Made by a program: the position numbers and the translations under genes
Part shown: piece after piece, positions 188-32,958 of the stretch
Layout of the letters: the number at the start of each line of letters is the position of its first letter
Position numbering within the stretch: the stretch's first letter is position 1
DNA from: Cyanobacteria bacterium RYN_339
Lineage (GTDB): Bacteria; Cyanobacteriota; Sericytochromatia; S15B-MN24; JAQBPE01
Length of the DNA: 35,154 nt
Assembly (NCBI GenBank): GCA_028287685.1
Contig: JAQBPE010000343.1
Location: 1 to 35,154 of the forward strand
Reading direction: 5' to 3'
Notes under the pieces: generated by a model
Told to the model about the DNA's origin: nothing
What the model saw: the letters and a program-made list of their open reading frames with translations, nothing else
Database searches by the model: none

Positions 188-1576
188 ATGTTCAACCAGC
201 CTATCCGTAACCTCGCGCAGCTGACCGCTCTGGTCGCCGTGTTGACGTCGACGGGCTGCGGCAGGGCGCCGATGCAAACGGCGTTGCCCTCGTCGAACGA
301 TTCGTCGTTCACCCAGGGCAGCTACGGCTACTCGGCCCGCATCCCCTCCGGCACCGTGACCGGCCGGGTCGTCGACGAGCGCACGAAGATGGGCATCCCC
401 GACGTCTACGTCGAGGTCCAGAACGTCAGCCCCGCCGTCTCCACCCGCACGGACTCGAGCGGCAACTTCTCCTTGCAGAACGTGCCCCAGGGCCAGCAGG
501 TCATCGTCGTCAACAAGCAGGACTACGTGTACCTGGCGACGCAGGGCTCGATCATCGCCCAGGTGCTGCCCAGCGCCACCGTTTCGCTCGCCCAGATCAA
601 CCTGAGCCCGGCCATCGCGTCGGCCTCCAACGCCTACCTGACGTCCATCGGCGGCCTGGTGGAGCCCTACGGCCTCGCCATCGACAACAACCACGGCTAC
701 CTCTACGCGGTGGACCGCGTGGGCATCAACGACCTGCTCGACAAGCGTTGCGAAGTCAAGAAGTTCAACACCTCGGGCGGCTTCGTGAAGCGCTTCGGCG
801 GCGAGAAGTTCGGCGTCTCGAAGGGCAACGAGAGCAGCAGCTGGTTCGACCTGTTCAGCCACCTGAGCTGGAGCTACGGCGTCGACGTCGATGCCGGCGG
901 CAACGTGTACGTGGCCGAGGCCAACAAGGACCGCGTCGTGAAGTTCAGCGGCGACGGCGACTACATCACCAGCTTCAAGGACAACGTGAAGAACGACTTC
1001 GACGTCGCGGTGCTGAACAACGGCCAGATCGGCGTCAGCTCCAGCGGCAACTCCAAGATCGTCCTGTTCGACGTCAACCTGACGGCGAGCGCGAAGGACT
1101 TCTCCGGCACCGCCGGCAACGCTTCCGTCAACGGCGGCTTCCGCGGCCTGGCGGTGGACAGCGCCAACTTCCTCTACGTGATCGACAACTCCGCCGGCCC
1201 CGGCGGCGCCATCAAGAAGTACGACGGCCGTGGCGGCAACCCGGTGCTGCAGTTCGGCAACAACAGCGGTTCGGGCCCCAGCCAGTTCCGCGGCGCGACC
1301 GACGTCGCCATCGACAACCGCAGCGGCGACGTCTACGTCGTCGACGCCGGCAACAACCGCATCCAGCGCTTCGACCGCGACGGCCGCTTCATCAGCGAGT
1401 TCGGCTCCGCCGGCCGCGGCAACGGCCAGTTCGACCGCCCCTACGGCATCGCCATCGACAAGGACGGCTACGTCTACGTCTCCGACGCGGGCAACAAGCG
1501 CATCCAGAAGTTCGCCCCCGGTCGCATCCTGAACGGCACCACCTCGTACAGCAACGTTTACTACCCCACCAAGTAA
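188..1576 (+). CDS. NHL-repeat beta-propeller lipoprotein with N-terminal carboxypeptidase-regulatory-like domain
   Basis: The 462-residue product begins with a lipoprotein signal (hydrophobic stretch, then STGC with Cys at 24). Residues about 51-105 look like a carboxypeptidase-regulatory-like beta-sandwich (GRVVDERT..GIPDVYVEV, then DSSGNFSLQNVPQG). From about 151 to 455 there are roughly six NHL units with the signature YGLAID..GYLYAVD and GNNRIQRFDRDG, enough for one six-bladed propeller. The ATG at 188 is preferred over a GTG at 179 because the ribosome site GAAAGGG (173-179) sits 8 nt before 188 and would overlap the GTG. NHL propellers bind proteins, glycans or other ligands; no catalytic residues are evident, so a surface-exposed binding role is inferred. 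It is monocistronic, with its own terminator. Confidence 0.85.
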   Translation: MFNQPIRNLAQLTALVAVLTSTGCGRAPMQTALPSSNDSSFTQGSYGYSARIPSGTVTGRVVDERTKMGIPDVYVEVQNVSPAVSTRTDSSGNFSLQNVPQGQQVIVVNKQDYVYLATQGSIIAQVLPSATVSLAQINLSPAIASASNAYLTSIGGLVEPYGLAIDNNHGYLYAVDRVGINDLLDKRCEVKKFNTSGGFVKRFGGEKFGVSKGNESSSWFDLFSHLSWSYGVDVDAGGNVYVAEANKDRVVKFSGDGDYITSFKDNVKNDFDVAVLNNGQIGVSSSGNSKIVLFDVNLTASAKDFSGTAGNASVNGGFRGLAVDSANFLYVIDNSAGPGGAIKKYDGRGGNPVLQFGNNSGSGPSQFRGATDVAIDNRSGDVYVVDAGNNRIQRFDRDGRFISEFGSAGRGNGQFDRPYGIAIDKDGYVYVSDAGNKRIQKFAPGRILNGTTSYSNVYYPTK

Positions 1577-2823: not shown

Positions 2824-3753
2824 ATGACCGTAGTGAACGCCCAGATCGCCCCCGTCGCTTTCCAGCCCCGCGTGGCGGCTCCCGTGACCGGCACGACGCT
2901 TCCGGTCAACGTTGCCCCCCGGACGGATGACCGCTGCCAGTTGCAGGGTGCCGCGGCCCCCAAGGCCGACCCCCTGGCCGGCTACGCCGCCCGCACCGGC
3001 ATCAACGCTGCTGACTTCCTGGCTGCCGGTTGGCAGGACAAGACTCCCCTTCAATTGGAAATCGCCGACACGAAGGCAAAGCTGAAGGAGGCGAAGGTCG
3101 ACATGGTCTGGCCCGGGATGGTGACGCTGGACGCCCACCTCAAGGCCTTGGAGGCGCGCGAAGCGTTCCAGAACGGCGGCGCGGACAGCGCCGAGCTGCT
3201 GTGGCAGATGGACGACATGGACAAGGCGATCCAGGCCTGTGACCCCGGCGACATGGACAAGATCATCAACCTGCACGAATCGATGCAGATCCGCGACACG
3301 CAACTGCGGCAGTTCGGCAAGCCGCACTCGCCCGAGCAAAAGGCCCACCTCGAGAAGCTGAGCAACCTCGAGCACGAGCTCTGGGCCGCCAAGACGTCGA
3401 TGGAGCGGGGCAGCGTCCAACAGCGCATCCAGGTCGAGCAGGCCATCCTCGGGCAGCTGGAGCGCCCCGTCACCCCTGCGCAGCGGCAGCTGATGGACCA
3501 GATGACGGCGCTCGGCGAGCAGACGACGAAAGCCATGGACTCCCGTGGGGCCACGCAGTTGCAATTGGCTCTCCAGACCTGCACCTGCCGCCTGCAAGCC
3601 TCCAACCTTCCTCATTCGCAAGCGCGCACCGCGCTGTTGGCTGCCATGGAAGCGACGGCTCGCGAGGTGGGCACGGCCAGCTCCGCCGCGGCGATCCAGC
3701 AGGGCATCATCAAGTTCCAATCCTTGCAGGACAGCTTCGAGCAGACGCTCTAA
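2824..3753 (+). CDS. unknown helical protein with a disordered N-terminus
   Basis: I do not recognise this 309-residue protein. The first 45 or so residues are rich in Pro, Ala and Val and look disordered (VNAQIAPVAFQPRVAAPV). The rest is strongly helical and charged, with heptad-like stretches (LEIADTKAKLKEAK, AHLEKLSNLEHELWAAK), so a helical bundle or coiled coil is likely. There is no signal peptide or membrane segment, so it is predicted cytoplasmic. A Cys-Thr-Cys lies near residue 265. The ATG at 2824 has GAGAGAGG at 2808-2815; a TTG further upstream has no such support. It stands alone between two hairpins. The PVAFQ segment near the N-terminus resembles PVAYQ in the membrane protein at 32257. 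Confidence 0.75.
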   Translation: MTVVNAQIAPVAFQPRVAAPVTGTTLPVNVAPRTDDRCQLQGAAAPKADPLAGYAARTGINAADFLAAGWQDKTPLQLEIADTKAKLKEAKVDMVWPGMVTLDAHLKALEAREAFQNGGADSAELLWQMDDMDKAIQACDPGDMDKIINLHESMQIRDTQLRQFGKPHSPEQKAHLEKLSNLEHELWAAKTSMERGSVQQRIQVEQAILGQLERPVTPAQRQLMDQMTALGEQTTKAMDSRGATQLQLALQTCTCRLQASNLPHSQARTALLAAMEATAREVGTASSAAAIQQGIIKFQSLQDSFEQTL

Positions 3754-3775
3754 GCATCCCGCTCGCGGCGCCTTC

Positions 3776-3806
3776 GACCCACTTCCCTTCGGGAGGTGGG
3801 TCTTTT
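3776..3806 (+). terminator. terminator of the helical-protein gene
   Basis: A 12-bp stem (GACCCACTTCCC with GGGAGGTGGGTC, one G-U pair) around a TTC loop is followed by TTTT. It begins 23 bp after the stop codon. Its CCCACTTCCC arm matches the palindrome at 2623-2652. Confidence 0.85.
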
Positions 3807-3836
3807 GACGTTTACTTGCTGGTTCCGCGTTGGGGG

Positions 3837-3842
3837 TATAGT
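3837..3842 (+). promoter_or_regulatory. possible -10 box of the CoA-transferase gene
   Basis: TATAGT lies 38 bp before the GTG at 3881, just after the preceding terminator. A weak -35 (TTGCTG at 3816-3821, 15-bp spacer) is the best match upstream. Start of transcription would be near 3849, giving a leader of about 30 nt with the ribosome site AAGAGGAG. Confidence 0.35.
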
Positions 3843-3880
3843 GCCTCCGTCCGCCCCCACCCCCAAGAGGAGCCACCCCC

Positions 3881-5047
3881 GTGACCTTGCCGCTTTCCGG
3901 CCTGCGCGTGATCGACCTGACCCGGGCCCTGGCCGGTCCCTACTGCGCCATGATGCTGGGCGACCTCGGCGCGGACGTGATCAAGGTGGAGCAGCCCGGC
4001 AAGGGCGACGAGAGCCGGGGTTGGGGCCCGCCGTTCCAGGAGGGCGAGTCCAGCTACTTCCTCTCGATCAACCGTAACAAGCGCAGCATCACGCTGGACC
4101 TCAAGAGCCCGGAAGGCAAGGAGGCGCTCACGCGGCTGATCGCCAGCGCCGACGTGCTCTTGGAGAACTTCTCGCCGGGCACCATGAGCAAGCTCGGCTT
4201 CGAGCCGAAGGACGTCTGCGCGCGCCACCCCCGCCTGATTTACTGTTCCATCTCCGGCTTCGGCCAGGCGGGCCCCAACCGCAACCTGCCCGCCTATGAC
4301 CTGATCCTGCAAGGTATGGGTGGCCTGATGAGCATCACCGGACCGGTGGACGGCCCGCCGACCAAGGTGGGCGTGCCAATTGCGGACCTGACGGCCGGGA
4401 TGTTCGCCTCCACGGCCATCATGACGGCGCTGTTCCACCGGGAGCGCACCGGCCAGGGCCAGTACGTGGACACCTCCTTGTTGGACGGCCAGCTGGCCCT
4501 GCTCACCTTCCAGGGCGGCCGCTACTTCGCCACCAACGAGGCCCCGACCTGGCAGGGCAACGAGCACCCCTCGATCGCCCCCTACGAGACCTTCAAGGCC
4601 AAGGACGGCTACGTGAACATGGCCGTCGGCAACGAGAGCCTGTGGGCCAAGTTCTGCCCCGCTTTCGGCCTCGAAGCCTGCCTGGAAGACCCGCGCTTCC
4701 TGAAAAACGCCGATCGCCTGCAGCACCGCCCGGCCCTGATCGGCCTGATCGAAGGCGCGTTCGCACCCTTCTCGACGGCGGAGGTGCTTGCCAGGCTCCA
4801 GGCAGCCGGCGTGCCGTGCGGCCCCATCTACGACCTGGCCCAGGCATTGACGGACCCCCATGTGGTGGATCAGGGCCTGGTGCGCGAGGTCCAGCACCCC
4901 ACGGCCGGGACCGTGAAGTACCCCGGCATGCCGTATCGCTTCTCGGCCAGCCCCGCGGGCGTGGATCGGCCGCCGCCGCGGTTGGGCGAGCACACGGCCG
5001 CGATCCTCGCCGAACTTGGGCTGGCTCCGGCCCCTGTGCCAGGGTGA
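3881..5047 (+). CDS. CaiB/BaiF family (class III) CoA-transferase
   Basis: A 388-residue class III CoA-transferase, the usual length of the family. The N-terminal LSGLRVIDLTRALAGPYCAMMLGDLGAD block and IKVEQPG.GD..R are the CoA-binding hallmark, and Asp140 in LPAYDLILQGMGGLMSITG matches the catalytic Asp that forms the acyl anhydride. The family moves CoA between carboxylic acids (formyl/oxalyl, carnitine, succinyl/mesaconyl and others); the substrate cannot be read from the sequence. The GTG start is supported by AAGAGGAG at 3865-3872, 8 nt upstream. No partner acyl-CoA dehydrogenase or lyase lies nearby. It converges on the lipoprotein operon with only 6 bp between the stop codons. Confidence 0.9.
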   Translation: MTLPLSGLRVIDLTRALAGPYCAMMLGDLGADVIKVEQPGKGDESRGWGPPFQEGESSYFLSINRNKRSITLDLKSPEGKEALTRLIASADVLLENFSPGTMSKLGFEPKDVCARHPRLIYCSISGFGQAGPNRNLPAYDLILQGMGGLMSITGPVDGPPTKVGVPIADLTAGMFASTAIMTALFHRERTGQGQYVDTSLLDGQLALLTFQGGRYFATNEAPTWQGNEHPSIAPYETFKAKDGYVNMAVGNESLWAKFCPAFGLEACLEDPRFLKNADRLQHRPALIGLIEGAFAPFSTAEVLARLQAAGVPCGPIYDLAQALTDPHVVDQGLVREVQHPTAGTVKYPGMPYRFSASPAGVDRPPPRLGEHTAAILAELGLAPAPVPG

Positions 5048-28822: not shown

Positions 28823-28837
28823 TTAAAGACGCCTTAA
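28823..28837. promoter_or_regulatory. TTAA-N7-TTAA element before the FxLYD-like lipoprotein gene
   Basis: TTAAA repeats exactly 11 bp apart (28823 and 28834). The lipoprotein start is 84 bp downstream. Another TTAA lies at 28863. Same geometry as the elements at 143, 29682, 29730 and 32188. Confidence 0.45.
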
Positions 28838-28921: not shown

Positions 28922-29473
28922 ATGCTGAATCAGAACGTGGTTATGGCCGGAATGGTCGCCATCGCCCTGTGCCTGGCCGGCTGCGGCAACCGCACCCCCG
29001 CCAACGTCGTGCCCGAAGACGCGGGGGCCACCGCGCCGACCGCCCCGGCGGCGTCCACCGCCCCCCCGGCAGCTACGCCCGTGGTCGCGGCCCCGCCCGT
29101 GGCCTACAGCCAGCCCGTCACCGGCTCGCTGGTCGTCAGCGGCGTGAACCTCACCAAGAAGGGCCTGATTTTCCGCACCATGACTGCCGCCGGCTCCGTG
29201 GTGAACTCCAGCAACGTGGCGCTTTCCGGCACGCTCAAGGTCCAATTCAAGAAGAAGGGCCTGCTCAGCAGCACGCTGAAGGACACCACGGTCAAGTCGA
29301 TCGTCGTGCCTTCGCTGCAGCCCGGCCAGTCGTTCCCCTTCACCGTCACGGCCGACAAGAGCGGCGACGACGACGCGGAATGCACCGTCGAAACCAACCA
29401 GCCCGCGGCCACCACGGCGGCCCCCACCACCGGCGCCGCTGCCGCGATGATGACCACCGGCACCGCTTACTAA
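28922..29473 (+). CDS. lipoprotein with FxLYD-like beta-sandwich domain
   Basis: A 183-residue product with lipobox LAGC (Cys21), a Pro/Ala/Thr-rich linker (about 25-65), one predicted beta-sandwich domain (66-158) and an Ala/Thr-rich tail. The domain (GSLVVSGVNLTKKGL, then NSSNVALSGTLKVQFKK, VPSLQPGQSFPFTV) resembles FxLYD/DUF3426-type folds, in which strands follow the pattern v.G.v.N.s; the match is tentative. AGAGGAGA at 28907-28914 gives a good start. It is monocistronic, with its own terminator. Confidence 0.82.
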   Translation: MLNQNVVMAGMVAIALCLAGCGNRTPANVVPEDAGATAPTAPAASTAPPAATPVVAAPPVAYSQPVTGSLVVSGVNLTKKGLIFRTMTAAGSVVNSSNVALSGTLKVQFKKKGLLSSTLKDTTVKSIVVPSLQPGQSFPFTVTADKSGDDDAECTVETNQPAATTAAPTTGAAAAMMTTGTAY

Positions 29474-29487
29474 GCCTTTCCCCAGGA

Positions 29488-29512
29488 CGCCCGGCTTCGG
29501 CCGGGCGTTTTT
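29488..29512 (+). terminator. Rho-independent terminator of the FxLYD-like lipoprotein gene
   Basis: An 8-bp stem CGCCCGGC with GCCGGGCG around the TTCG tetraloop is followed by five T. It lies 15 bp after the stop codon. Confidence 0.93.
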
Positions 29513-29557
29513 GCGTTGGCCACCTTGCAAGGTTAAGACCGGGCGGAAGGCCCTATG

Positions 29558-29744
29558 TTAACGGCTGGCTAACGGCTTAGGCTAAGAACCATGATGGTTC
29601 GGTTAAGGCCCGGTAAAGCGCAACCCAGGCCGATCTGGCATTTAACGCTTACCAATAAACATTTAACACCACGGCCTCCATTTAATACCGAATTAAGTTA
29701 CCCGGTCGGAAGCCGGCGGTACATGACAGTTAACCGAGCGTTAA
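29558..29744. promoter_or_regulatory. array of TTAA-type 11-bp repeats before the LssY_C lipoprotein gene
   Basis: The 318-bp gap 29474-29791 holds the preceding terminator and then an unusual array. Pairs 11 bp apart are TTAACGG/CTAACGG (29558, 29569), GGTTAA/GGTAAA (29601, 29612), TTAAT/TTAAG (29682, 29693) and GTTAAC/GTTAAT (29729, 29740). TTAAC cores 21 bp apart lie at 29642 and 29663. The last pair ends 47 bp before the GTG start. The arrangement fits several dimeric sites for one regulator. No standard -10/-35 pair is evident. Confidence 0.5.
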
Positions 29745-29791
29745 TCCCCGAAGCACGGGTCCTTAGTAGGCCCGCTGACCAGGAGAGCCCA

Positions 29792-30568
29792 GTGTTCAAC
29801 CGTCATACCGCCAAGCTGTTCACCGTCGCTACCATCGCCTCCGTGCTGGTCGGTTGCGGCAAGGCGCCCGTCACGGGCGCGATCCTGGGCCAGGCCAACG
29901 CCGGCCAGATCGTCGGCATCCCGGCCAACTACCAGGCCGGCCAGCCCCTGGCGGGCACCGAGGGCCAGCCCACCCTGCGCAAGGTGAACTGGCCCACCAT
30001 CACCCGCACGGCCGACGGCACCCCCTCGGATCCGGTCAACCTGATCATCGCCGGCACCGAGGCCCAGGTCCGGCACGTCTTCGGGGCGGAGGGCTGGGTG
30101 GAGGCCGACAAGCTGACGGCCTGGACCGCCATCAAGACGATCAAGGGCGCGCTGGCCGACAGCGCCTACCCCACCTCGCCGATGAGCGACCTCTACATGT
30201 ACAACCGCAAGCAGGACATCGCGCTCCAGAAGAACGCCACCTCCGTGCGGCACCGCGACCACCTGCGCGTGTGGCAGACCCCCTTGAAGGACCACTACGG
30301 CCGCCCGTTCTGGGCCGTTGCCGCCACCCACGACATCGCCATCAAGTGGAGCGCGGGTGAAGTGCTCCCCACCCACGAAATCGCGCCCAGCATCGACCTG
30401 GAGCGCCAGCTGGTGGTGGACGACTTCGCGAAGAGCGGCCAGATCAAGCTGCGCTACCAACTACAAGCGTTGCCCACCAACTTCCACAGCGTGAACGGCG
30501 GCGGCGACGAGATCTTCTCCGACGGCAAGTGCGAAGTCCTGGAGCTGGTCGTCCTCAAAATCAAGTAA
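29792..30568 (+). CDS. LssY_C-domain lipoprotein
   Basis: With a GTG start at 29792 (AGGAGAG at 29781-29787) the product has 258 residues and a lipoprotein signal with LVGC (Cys22). Upstream in-frame ATGs would bury this signal behind 67 residues translated from the repeat-rich control region, so they are rejected. Residues about 78-215 match the LssY C-terminal domain: VNLIIAGTEAQVRHVF..AGW-like, YPTSPMSDLYMYNRKQDIALQK, RHRDHLRVWQ, GRPFWAVAATHDIAIK and THEIAPSIDLERQ. The domain's function is unknown; in LssY it follows a PAP2 phosphatase, absent here. The signal peptide (MFNRHTAK) resembles that of the NHL lipoprotein. Confidence 0.82.
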   Translation: MFNRHTAKLFTVATIASVLVGCGKAPVTGAILGQANAGQIVGIPANYQAGQPLAGTEGQPTLRKVNWPTITRTADGTPSDPVNLIIAGTEAQVRHVFGAEGWVEADKLTAWTAIKTIKGALADSAYPTSPMSDLYMYNRKQDIALQKNATSVRHRDHLRVWQTPLKDHYGRPFWAVAATHDIAIKWSAGEVLPTHEIAPSIDLERQLVVDDFAKSGQIKLRYQLQALPTNFHSVNGGGDEIFSDGKCEVLELVVLKIK

Positions 30569-30932: not shown

Positions 30933-32129
30933 TTAGGAATCCAAATCGGAGCCCTTGCGTTTGAACATGCGCCCGAACAGCGCACTACCCGCCCAAAGCA
31001 GCCCCACCACGACGAGCGCGGCGAACAGGAGGCCGAACAACGGCGGGAAGGCGATCGCCAGCGTGACGAAGCCGACGCCCAGCCAGAGCCGCCCGAAGAA
31101 GCGCGCCGGCAGCAGCTTGAAGTGATCCACCAGGACCTTGCGCAACACCCAGCCCAGCGCCAGGAAGGCCAGCAGGCCCAACACGAAGATGGGCAAGACG
31201 GCGACCACCAGCGTGATGCCCGTGGTGATCAGCCAGTTCAGCGTGCCCGCCAGCTCGCGCTCGGCGTTGTGGATGGCGTTCTCCAGCGTGGCGCCCAGGT
31301 TCCAGGGCGACGTGGTGGAAATTTGGACCTGCTCCGTAAGCGTGATCTCGATGGTGGCGAGGTCTACCTGGTTGGACAGGTGGCGCAGGCGGCCTTGCGA
31401 CCGTTCGATTTCCCCGCGTACGCGCGAGAGCTCGCGCTCGACTTCCAGGACGTCGCTCAGCTTGCCGGCGCGCTTGAGCAGCTCGAGCAGCTGGCCCTCC
31501 TCCTTCTGGAGGTTGCGGACGCGGCTGGTGGTGTCGACGTACTCCAGCGTGACGTCGTCACCCGTGACCTGCCGGGTGCGTACGTTGCCCACGTCGCCCA
31601 GGGCGTTGAGCAGCTTGTCGAACTGGGTCGCGGGCACGCGCACGGTCAAGGACGCGGCAGGCACGCCGCCCTCGCTGGCATCGAGGCGCGAGTCGCTGAT
31701 GAAGCCGCCGACGTCCTTGACCAGGCCGGAGACGCGCTCCTGCGCTGCCTTGACGGAGTTGACCTGCAGGGTCAGGTTGCCGTGGCGGATGATATACAGC
31801 CCGGCCGTGGGGTTCTGCTTGGCCGGCTTGGCTGGCTTGCCGGCGATGGCGCCATGCGCGGATCCAGCGGGCGCCTTCGCGGCAGGCGGTGCCGCGGGGG
31901 CGTACTCGCCGGCTTCTTCGCGGGTCGCGGAGGGCGCGGCCTCCTTGGCCAGCTCCGGTTGATCCGTCGACGACATGTTCGCGGACTTCTTGTCGGCCAG
32001 GCCACCGCCGACGCCTTGGGCGACACTGGCGGCGCGGGACCTCAGGTCGTCGATCGCTTCCGGCGACCTCGCGCTGGAGCAGGCTGCCAGCAGGACGGCG
32101 ATGAGCAAGATGAAAGGCTTCTTTGACAT
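30933..32129 (-). CDS. DUF4349 lipoprotein with C-terminal membrane helices
   Basis: A 398-residue protein. Lipobox LAAC (Cys17) is followed by a disordered Ala/Pro/Lys region to about 105, then DUF4349 (GNLTLQV, GGFISDSRL, LTVRVPATQFDKLLNALG, DVTLEYVDTTSRVRNLQ, VERELSRVRGEIERSQGRL), which contains a coiled coil. Two long hydrophobic segments follow, typical of the family, and a basic C-terminus. DUF4349 proteins have no established function. The ATG at 32129 is chosen because an earlier ATG (32150) would precede the signal with polar residues; the ribosome site is weak, while TATAAC lies 6 nt upstream, which could mean a leaderless message. Confidence 0.88.
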   Translation of the reverse strand: MSKKPFILLIAVLLAACSSARSPEAIDDLRSRAASVAQGVGGGLADKKSANMSSTDQPELAKEAAPSATREEAGEYAPAAPPAAKAPAGSAHGAIAGKPAKPAKQNPTAGLYIIRHGNLTLQVNSVKAAQERVSGLVKDVGGFISDSRLDASEGGVPAASLTVRVPATQFDKLLNALGDVGNVRTRQVTGDDVTLEYVDTTSRVRNLQKEEGQLLELLKRAGKLSDVLEVERELSRVRGEIERSQGRLRHLSNQVDLATIEITLTEQVQISTTSPWNLGATLENAIHNAERELAGTLNWLITTGITLVVAVLPIFVLGLLAFLALGWVLRKVLVDHFKLLPARFFGRLWLGVGFVTLAIAFPPLFGLLFAALVVVGLLWAGSALFGRMFKRKGSDLDS

Positions 32130-32187: not shown

Positions 32188-32202
32188 TTAAAGCGCCTTT
32201 AA
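32188..32202. promoter_or_regulatory. TTAA-N7-TTAA element in a divergent control region
   Basis: TTAAAGCGCCTTTAA is a perfect inverted repeat (extended by C and G to 17 bp) and two TTAA cores 11 bp apart. It lies between the DUF4349 gene (start 32129, minus) and the multi-pass membrane protein (start 32257, plus) and could control either. Confidence 0.45.
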
Positions 32203-32256: not shown

Positions 32257-32958
32257 ATGTCCCTCTCGCCCTTGCGTCCGGTCGCTTACCAAGCCCCCGT
32301 AAGCCCTTACCAGGCCTACCAGGCGGCCCCGGCCCCGGTGCAGGCTCCCCTGGCCGCTCCCCTGGCACCCGCGGGCCCCGGCGTCGCCGCCGTCGCCCAT
32401 GCCGCCATGACCGGGCAGCAACTGCCCGGCGCCTCGCCGTTGCAGACCTCCGTGCTGGGCCTGGTCCAGCGAGGGCAGGCGGCGATGAAGGGCATCGCCG
32501 ACCACTTCTTCCCCGCTCCGCCGCCGCGGCTGGGCGTGCTCGCCACGACGCCGCTGACGCTGACGGAGAAGCTCCAGAAGGTCGGGCGCGCGGCGCTGTT
32601 CTTCGCCTTGCCGGTCGGCGGCGCCGCGGCCGTGGCTTGCGGCCTCGGCTGGGTGGTGGGGCCTTGGGTGCCTTTCATTGGTGGCCACGTGTTCGGCGCG
32701 GTGTGCGCGACCTTGGCGGTCGGCCAGACCGCGGGCATGTTGCTGCATGGCTCGATGCGCTTGCCGTTGATCACGAACCCGGAAGACCGGGAATACAACT
32801 CCGCCGGGGCGACCGCCGCCAGCGCCGGCATGGGCGCGCTGTTCGCCGCGGGCATTTGGGCTGCCGCCGGCAACCCCGTCACCCTGCCCCTCGTGCTGGC
32901 CGGCGCGGCCATCGGCGCCCTGCCCCGCATCCTGGAGTGGGGCATTGGCCACCACTAA
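32257..32958 (+). CDS. multi-pass membrane protein with disordered Pro/Ala/Tyr N-terminus
   Basis: A 233-residue protein. Residues 1-45 are rich in Pro, Ala, Tyr and Gln (PLRPVAYQAPVSPYQAYQ) and look disordered. From about residue 100 there are four hydrophobic segments (LFFALPVGGAAAVACGLGWVV; IGGHVFGAVCATLAVG; GALFAAGIWAAAG; LVLAGAAIGALP) rich in Gly and Ala, so a small-residue-packed membrane bundle is likely. The ATG at 32257 has AAAGGAG at 32245-32251, 5 nt away, and is preferred over the ATG at 32236. I do not recognise the family. The PVA(Y/F)Q segment near the N-terminus is shared with the product at 2824. Confidence 0.78.
   Translation: MSLSPLRPVAYQAPVSPYQAYQAAPAPVQAPLAAPLAPAGPGVAAVAHAAMTGQQLPGASPLQTSVLGLVQRGQAAMKGIADHFFPAPPPRLGVLATTPLTLTEKLQKVGRAALFFALPVGGAAAVACGLGWVVGPWVPFIGGHVFGAVCATLAVGQTAGMLLHGSMRLPLITNPEDREYNSAGATAASAGMGALFAAGIWAAAGNPVTLPLVLAGAAIGALPRILEWGIGHH

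Follow-up and report, generated by a model that had tools for sequence, protein, structure and literature searches.

A dense TTAA-N7-TTAA array before an LssY_C-domain lipoprotein gene and a recurrent box of Sericytochromatia with a candidate OmpR/PhoB-family regulator

Introduction

Does the dense series of TTAA repeats before an LssY_C-domain lipoprotein gene serve this gene alone or a regulon, and which regulator is likely to read it? The array lies in the window, by which we mean the whole analysed stretch of 35,154 nucleotides, contig C455 of the 7-Mb genome G000 (a draft with an estimated contamination of 6.7%). G000 is placed in Sericytochromatia, a class of Cyanobacteriota, because the nearest named records with its candidate regulator L082 are of Candidatus Sericytochromatia. 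A first-pass annotation had interpreted the repeats as an unusually large multi-dimer site of a PhoB/OmpR-type response regulator, controlling one lipoprotein gene, and had drawn a parallel to Pho boxes.

For gene regulation in Sericytochromatia no description was found; the listed papers naming the class deal, judged by title, with phylogeny, metabolism or diversity. A combined search for regulators and promoter motifs of the non-photosynthetic lineages also yielded nothing relevant. With a box that recurs across the class and a candidate regulator named for it, a first regulon would be available for this uncultured sister lineage of Cyanobacteria, together with a handle on what Sericytochromatia export. 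Furthermore, the box would be a clean test case for the question of whether recognition of TTAA-N7-TTAA, as by CtrA, SaeR, HP1043 and SphR, has arisen repeatedly from one OmpR-type recognition helix.

Results

The promoter gap (29474-29791, 318 bp) separates a lipoprotein gene (28922-29473) from the LssY_C lipoprotein gene (29792-30568, plus strand). The latter, the target gene, starts with GTG and encodes 258 aa with the lipobox VLVGC and a Pfam LssY_C match of 5.7e-50. On its left the promoter region is bounded by the terminator of the upstream gene (29488-29512, plus strand), which consists of an 8-bp GC stem, a UUCG loop and five T. It is visible by direct reading and folds as RNA with -22.7 kcal/mol; a consensus scan did not list it. 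No Rfam-type RNA family was detected in the gap; the single hit, SorX over the terminator, stayed below the threshold (17.4 bits, with 46.6 required). A consensus scan found no sigma-70 promoter there.

Nine TTAA were counted in the gap, together with four pairs at 11 bp, two exact and two with one mismatch in eight; no strand is assigned to these repeats. An isolated half-site (29533-29536) stands in GGTTAAGACCGGG, a string found again at 29601. It is followed by a TTAA-N7-CTAA pair (29558-29572), in which TTAACGG and CTAACGG enclose CTGG, and by a TTAA-N7-TAAA pair (29603-29617) composed of GGTTAAGGCCC and GGTAAAG; these are the two pairs with a mismatch. The annotation had placed the second of them at 29601/29612 (GGTTAA/GGTAAA), which corresponds to TTAA at 29603 and TAAA at 29614. 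Two TTAAC half-sites, 21 bp apart, are located at 29642-29645 inside a CATTTAACGCT repeat and at 29663-29666 inside a CATTTAACACC repeat. The exact pairs occupy 29682-29696 (TTAA at 29682 and 29693) and 29730-29744 (TTAA at 29730 and 29741), the second of which, 51-62 nt ahead of the start codon, is nearest to the gene. Hence, all four pairs and both TTAAC cores described before were recovered. With four pairs, 11 bp is the commonest TTAA-type spacing in the gap, each other spacing occurring zero to two times. As a separate observation, CATTTAA is present at 29639, 29660 and 29679 (29639-29689), spaced 21 and 19 bp; these three repeats overlap single half-sites and are out of the 11-bp register.

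The array was compared with 5000 dinucleotide-shuffled versions of the gap (318 bp), a control by which the annotation had proposed to judge its reading. The nine TTAA stand against a mean of 2.67 and a maximum of 8, and the two exact TTAA-N7-TTAA pairs against 0.02 (fraction 0.0002). YTAA-N7-YTAA occurred three times, compared with 0.05, and none of the shuffles reached this number. Among the upstream regions of the sampled G000 sequence the gap ranked first in number of TTAA, and it is the densest example of the recurrent TTAA-N7-TTAA box found so far. Within this sample the size attributed to the site is thus borne out. A comparably dense array, with seven TTAA and four 11-bp pairs, was noticed in G003, which belongs to another family of the order, upstream of a lipoprotein gene (L275, 10054-11286, plus strand).

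The assignment to a single gene did not survive. In the window all five strict TTAA-N7-TTAA sites precede genes, two of them being the exact pairs of the focal gap. The others, likewise without assigned strand, are found at 143-157, before a gene for an NHL-repeat protein with a lipobox-like STGC (188-1576, plus strand), at 28823-28837, before the neighbouring lipoprotein gene (28922-29473, plus strand), and at 32188-32202, between the divergent genes 30933-32129 (minus strand), coding for a DUF4349 lipoprotein, and 32257-32958 (plus strand). At the last site, on the plus side, the second TTAA is followed after 27 nt by GATAAG. In the whole of G000, TTAA-N7-TTAA was counted 181 times, TTAA-N6-TTAA 27 times and a reversed control pattern 13 times; these 181 sites mark a regulon. 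The pattern is genome-wide and class-wide and goes beyond the reading of a single window.

The spacing autocorrelation and the gene-level tests refer to sampled contigs, not to the whole genome. In 676 kb of G000, TTAA-to-TTAA distances of 11, 22 and 33 bp were found 20, 8 and 4 times and other distances zero to three times. For AATT, TATA, ATAT, TTTA, AAAA, CTAG and others no comparable 11-bp peak appeared in these 676 kb. When every tetramer was examined at distances of 5-40 in intergenic DNA, TTAA at 11 ranked first in the blind contigs of G000, from which the window was left out (10 pairs, where 0.77 were expected; p=1e-8). It was also first in G003 (32 vs 1.5), where the stretches had been chosen around sites. 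The shuffles, the controls with N6 and with the reversed pattern, and the test of all tetramers rule out a chance product of AT-rich gaps.

The scan of relatives, which the annotation had likewise proposed, showed enrichment in almost every genome of the order. The ratio of N7 to N6 pairs amounted there to about 4- to 19-fold (4.3-19), with 2.4 in G009, which is 64% complete. Elsewhere in the class it was 4.9 in G010, 2.9 in G012, 2.2 in G011, 2.1 in G013 and 1.3 in G016; G015 (1.1) had no significant enrichment. Twelve photosynthetic Cyanobacteria gave 0.8-1.7, and low ratios are less informative in AT-rich genomes, which have a high background. The box is a class-wide signal of Sericytochromatia (Cyanobacteriota) that is hardly enriched in photosynthetic Cyanobacteria.

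Regarding placement, the tandem and divergent gaps of the blind contigs have 2.5-3.8 TTAA per kb and the convergent ones 1.3; 11-bp pairs were found in the former, with none in the convergent gaps of these contigs. In oriented pairs TTAA alone is conserved, with C weakly preferred at the next position, and linkers and flanks contain almost no information. A third half-site was seen at +22, a signal partly due to ten triple sites that had been fetched on purpose. Downstream of TTAA, GATAA(C/G) occurs in G000 at 26-27, 37-38, 48-49 and 59-60 nt, close before ribosome-binding sites. Of 55 GATAA occurrences between 20 and 62 nt, 34 are in the phase 26/27+11k, which was picked after seeing the data, so its p-value is optimistic. 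Examples of GATAAC or GATAAG in register are located near 10671 in L052, near 1537 in L115 and near 1538 in L120. In G003 the phasing is weak, and some of it falls on distances of 31 and 42 instead; in the focal LssY_C promoter GATAAC was not found at the usual distance. We infer that GATAAC is a -10-like element.

The genes behind the boxes were classified with our own small gene finder for the starts and a simple regular expression for lipoproteins, and some divergent pairs were counted for both genes. Of 63 G000 genes preceded by a pair or by a phased GATAA promoter, 24 encode lipoproteins, compared with 58 of 438 others (p=6e-6). For G003, with pairs only, the numbers were 17 of 41 and 28 of 217 (p=6e-5). 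In the blind contigs of G000 the lipoprotein share was 11% with no TTAA upstream, 21%, 20% and 36% with one, two and at least three, and 42% with an 11-bp pair; at least two TTAA compared with none gave p=0.007. In the G000 sample, lipoprotein genes follow each of the three upstream regions with the most TTAA, of which the focal one is first. The target proteins include subtilases, zinc carboxypeptidases (M14), papain- and clostripain-type peptidases, GH1 glycosidases, NHL/SGL propellers, EF-hand and peptidoglycan-binding proteins. Two neighbouring lipoprotein genes of G003 (L271, 13919-14845 and 15483-16409, both minus strand) have near-identical N-termini and TTAA arrays, apparently after a recent duplication of gene and promoter.

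The focal gap could be compared only with distant homologues and paralogues, because G001, the only genome of the same family, has no LssY_C match. Among these the box is frequent. An exact pair precedes L007 (G007) and L017, and a degenerate pair with GATAAC lies upstream of L008 (G003). Other LssY_C homologues have single or off-phase TTAA upstream, and no TTAA pair was found before L009 and L010.

Discussion

The half-sites recur with a fixed period in promoter regions, as in the direct-repeat operators of OmpR/PhoB-family regulators with their period of 10-11 bp. The most probable reading, to which we assign a probability of roughly 0.7, is a head-to-tail platform for such a regulator, most likely L082, which would serve a surface and secretome regulon across Sericytochromatia. 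Each TTAA would be a half-site, and two half-sites 11 bp apart would hold one dimer. In the focal gap four dimer pairs and additional single half-sites would be lined up before one lipoprotein gene, and a winged-helix response regulator would occupy the array head-to-tail. The same box with a free linker would control many genes for surface lipoproteins and secreted enzymes as one large regulon. That the site is of the OmpR/PhoB type, which the annotation had predicted in its multi-dimer form, is strongly supported by the 11-bp spacing throughout the genome, the position in promoter gaps, the conservation in the class and the SphR-like helix of the candidates discussed below.

Four known systems are similar. 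The CtrA box of Alphaproteobacteria has the consensus TTAA-N7-TTAA, and the variant TTAA-N7-CTAA is also bound (PMC11264516). Half-site, spacing and free linker are the same here, and a TTAA-N7-CTAA pair is part of the focal array. CtrA controls a global regulon of about 100 genes from sites at -35, with occasional multi-site promoters such as that of pilA (PMC11264516). In contrast to this cell cycle regulator, the regulon described here comprises surface lipoproteins and exoenzymes. No CtrA orthologue was detected among the scored candidates (L081 165 bits and RpaB 155 bits; NCBIfam cut-off 350 bits), and the CtrA model was outside the best 25 models for L082 and L086; the remaining regulators were inspected by eye. 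The box is not assigned to a CtrA regulon: the consensus matches, but the candidates scored are far below the cut-off of the model.

SaeR of Staphylococcus binds GTTAA-N6-GTTAA, a direct repeat of 11 bp that needs TTAA but does not strictly depend on the flanking G (PMC5083920). The likeness extends to the regulon, as SaeR controls secreted and surface proteins. The lineages are unrelated, however, and the SaeR linker prefers A/T, a preference not seen here. The HP1043 box of Helicobacter, TTTAAG-N5-TTTAAG, is recognised by an OmpR/PhoB regulator that is essential and has a broad regulon (PMC8345958); it also consists of TTAA-containing hexamers spaced by 11 bp and overlapping promoters. HP1043 is an orphan and works without phosphorylation, whereas L082 adjoins a kinase gene. 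The fourth system is the Pho box of Cyanobacteria, where SphR binds repeats of CTTAACCT with 3-bp linkers and therefore an 11-bp period (PMC1906773). TTAA core, period and tandem arrangement of two or three repeats are common to both, but the conserved CC after TTAA is absent here, with only the weak C at this position.

For G000, 25 matches to PF00486 over the cut-off were obtained. Among them L082 (G000:C499), a regulator of the PhoB/SphR type, is the leading candidate. Orthologues with 84-95% identity are present in all genomes of the order except the incomplete G009, and others with 75-81% in G010-G013 and G016. In G015 and the Cyanobacteria no orthologue above 56% was found, G014 and G017 not being part of this search. 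The median N7/N6 ratio was 5.25 with an L082 orthologue and 1.12 without, a co-occurrence confounded by phylogeny and GC content. In nearly all genomes with a sufficiently long flank a histidine kinase gene adjoins L082, and both could form the two-component system serving the box. A single residue separates the recognition helix of L082, TVDVHIHWLREK, from that of L081 and the cyanobacterial SphR-like clade, TVDVHIRWLREK; the candidate regulators and the SphR-like proteins have TVDVHI[H/R]WLREK in common. Because of this distribution and the kinase neighbour, L082 is preferred to L081, which is present in G015 and beside which no kinase gene was found. Taken alone, the assignment to L082 has about even odds, and L081 would be second.

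It counts against L082 that other OmpR-type regulators, among them L081, L084 and L086, are likewise kept across the order. L084 is RpaB, passing its NCBIfam cut-off. Each of the twelve sampled photosynthetic genomes has an RpaB orthologue, and the N7/N6 ratio there is 0.8-1.7; an RpaB-dependent box is disfavoured, because Cyanobacteria have this regulator without enrichment of the box. Autoregulation is no proof for L082 either: an 11-bp pair in its own promoter was found in G000 and is not conserved, and the promoters of its orthologues contain mostly a single TTAA near -35.

The alternative that survives best is a Pho box of Sericytochromatia, bound by SphR (L081), with the lipoproteins as phosphate-starvation genes. 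L081 is an SphR-lineage paralogue of L082, sister to the cyanobacterial SphR-like clade (96/98 support), and reached 268 bits with the PhoB equivalog model, compared with 236 bits for L082 and a cut-off of 296 bits. The TTAAC-type 11-bp repeats fit this explanation. A literal Pho box is nevertheless disfavoured: PBP_like_2/PstS is missing from six of the ten Sericytochromatia genomes tested, including the strongly enriched G001, G003 and G006, and none of the four PBP_like_2 matches obtained has a TTAA pair in front. The regulon is of another kind. L081 also occurs in G015, where the box is not significantly enriched, and lacks the kinase neighbour, so we regard this alternative as improbable. 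The photosynthetic G018 and G024, which have no L082 orthologue, show a mild TTAA-N7-TTAA excess (1.5 and 1.7 over N6); these are possibly SphR sites.

Slightly less probable still is that TTAA belongs to the core promoter, either as the -35 element read by the main sigma factor, 22-23 nt before -10, or together with GATAAC as the signal of a FliA-type or other group-3 sigma factor. Single TTAA indeed lie 21-23 nt before TATAAT-like hexamers at the regulator genes L123, L124, L126, L128, L135, L137, L139 and L140. CGATAA (CCGATAA) resembles the -10 element of sigma-28, the phasing of GATAA with TTAA agrees with a sigma factor, and a FliA-like sigma is encoded in G000 (L154, C472). A sigma factor leaves unexplained, however, why two, three or four TTAA follow at exact 11-bp steps and why an excess occurs at 22 and 33 bp; a separate TTGAC-N18-TANNNT signal is present in the genome as well, and the GATAA phase carries the bias of its selection. 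Phased flexible TpA steps for a nucleoid protein or DNA bending, with no specific regulator, would suit the AT-rich TTAA in a genome with 67% GC and the nearly information-free linkers, but are very improbable given a spacing of exactly 11 instead of one smeared across 10-12, the lack of a comparable peak for AATT, TATA, ATAT, TTTA and AAAA, and the convergent gaps without 11-bp pairs.

Returning to the OmpR/PhoB-family platform, the regulator probably acts mainly as an activator, because many boxes of G000 are in register with the -10-like GATAAC element. At some boxes the last half-site is 12-40 nt away from the start codon, which differs from an activator site at -35, and at boxes very close to the start codon repression is equally possible. 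More tentatively, and somewhat short of even odds, surface lipoproteome and degradative exoenzymes may form one regulon through the lineage-specific L082/kinase system. Its box would then be convergent with those of CtrA and SphR or share an ancestry with them, and the number of dimers would tune expression, with the LssY_C gene as the extreme.

A second class of target proteins was noticed, without signal peptide and with Pro/Ala-rich N-termini that look disordered. It is encoded in G000 by L021 (4358-5719, plus strand; 3270-4250, minus strand), L023 (9367-10548, minus strand), the window (32257-32958, plus strand), L070 (2158-2796, plus strand) and L075 (6678-7820, plus strand), and in G003 by L262 (14308-16170), L277 (5267-6007) and L279 (10656-12587), all three on the plus strand. 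Thus, in two genera this class shares the box with lipoproteins.
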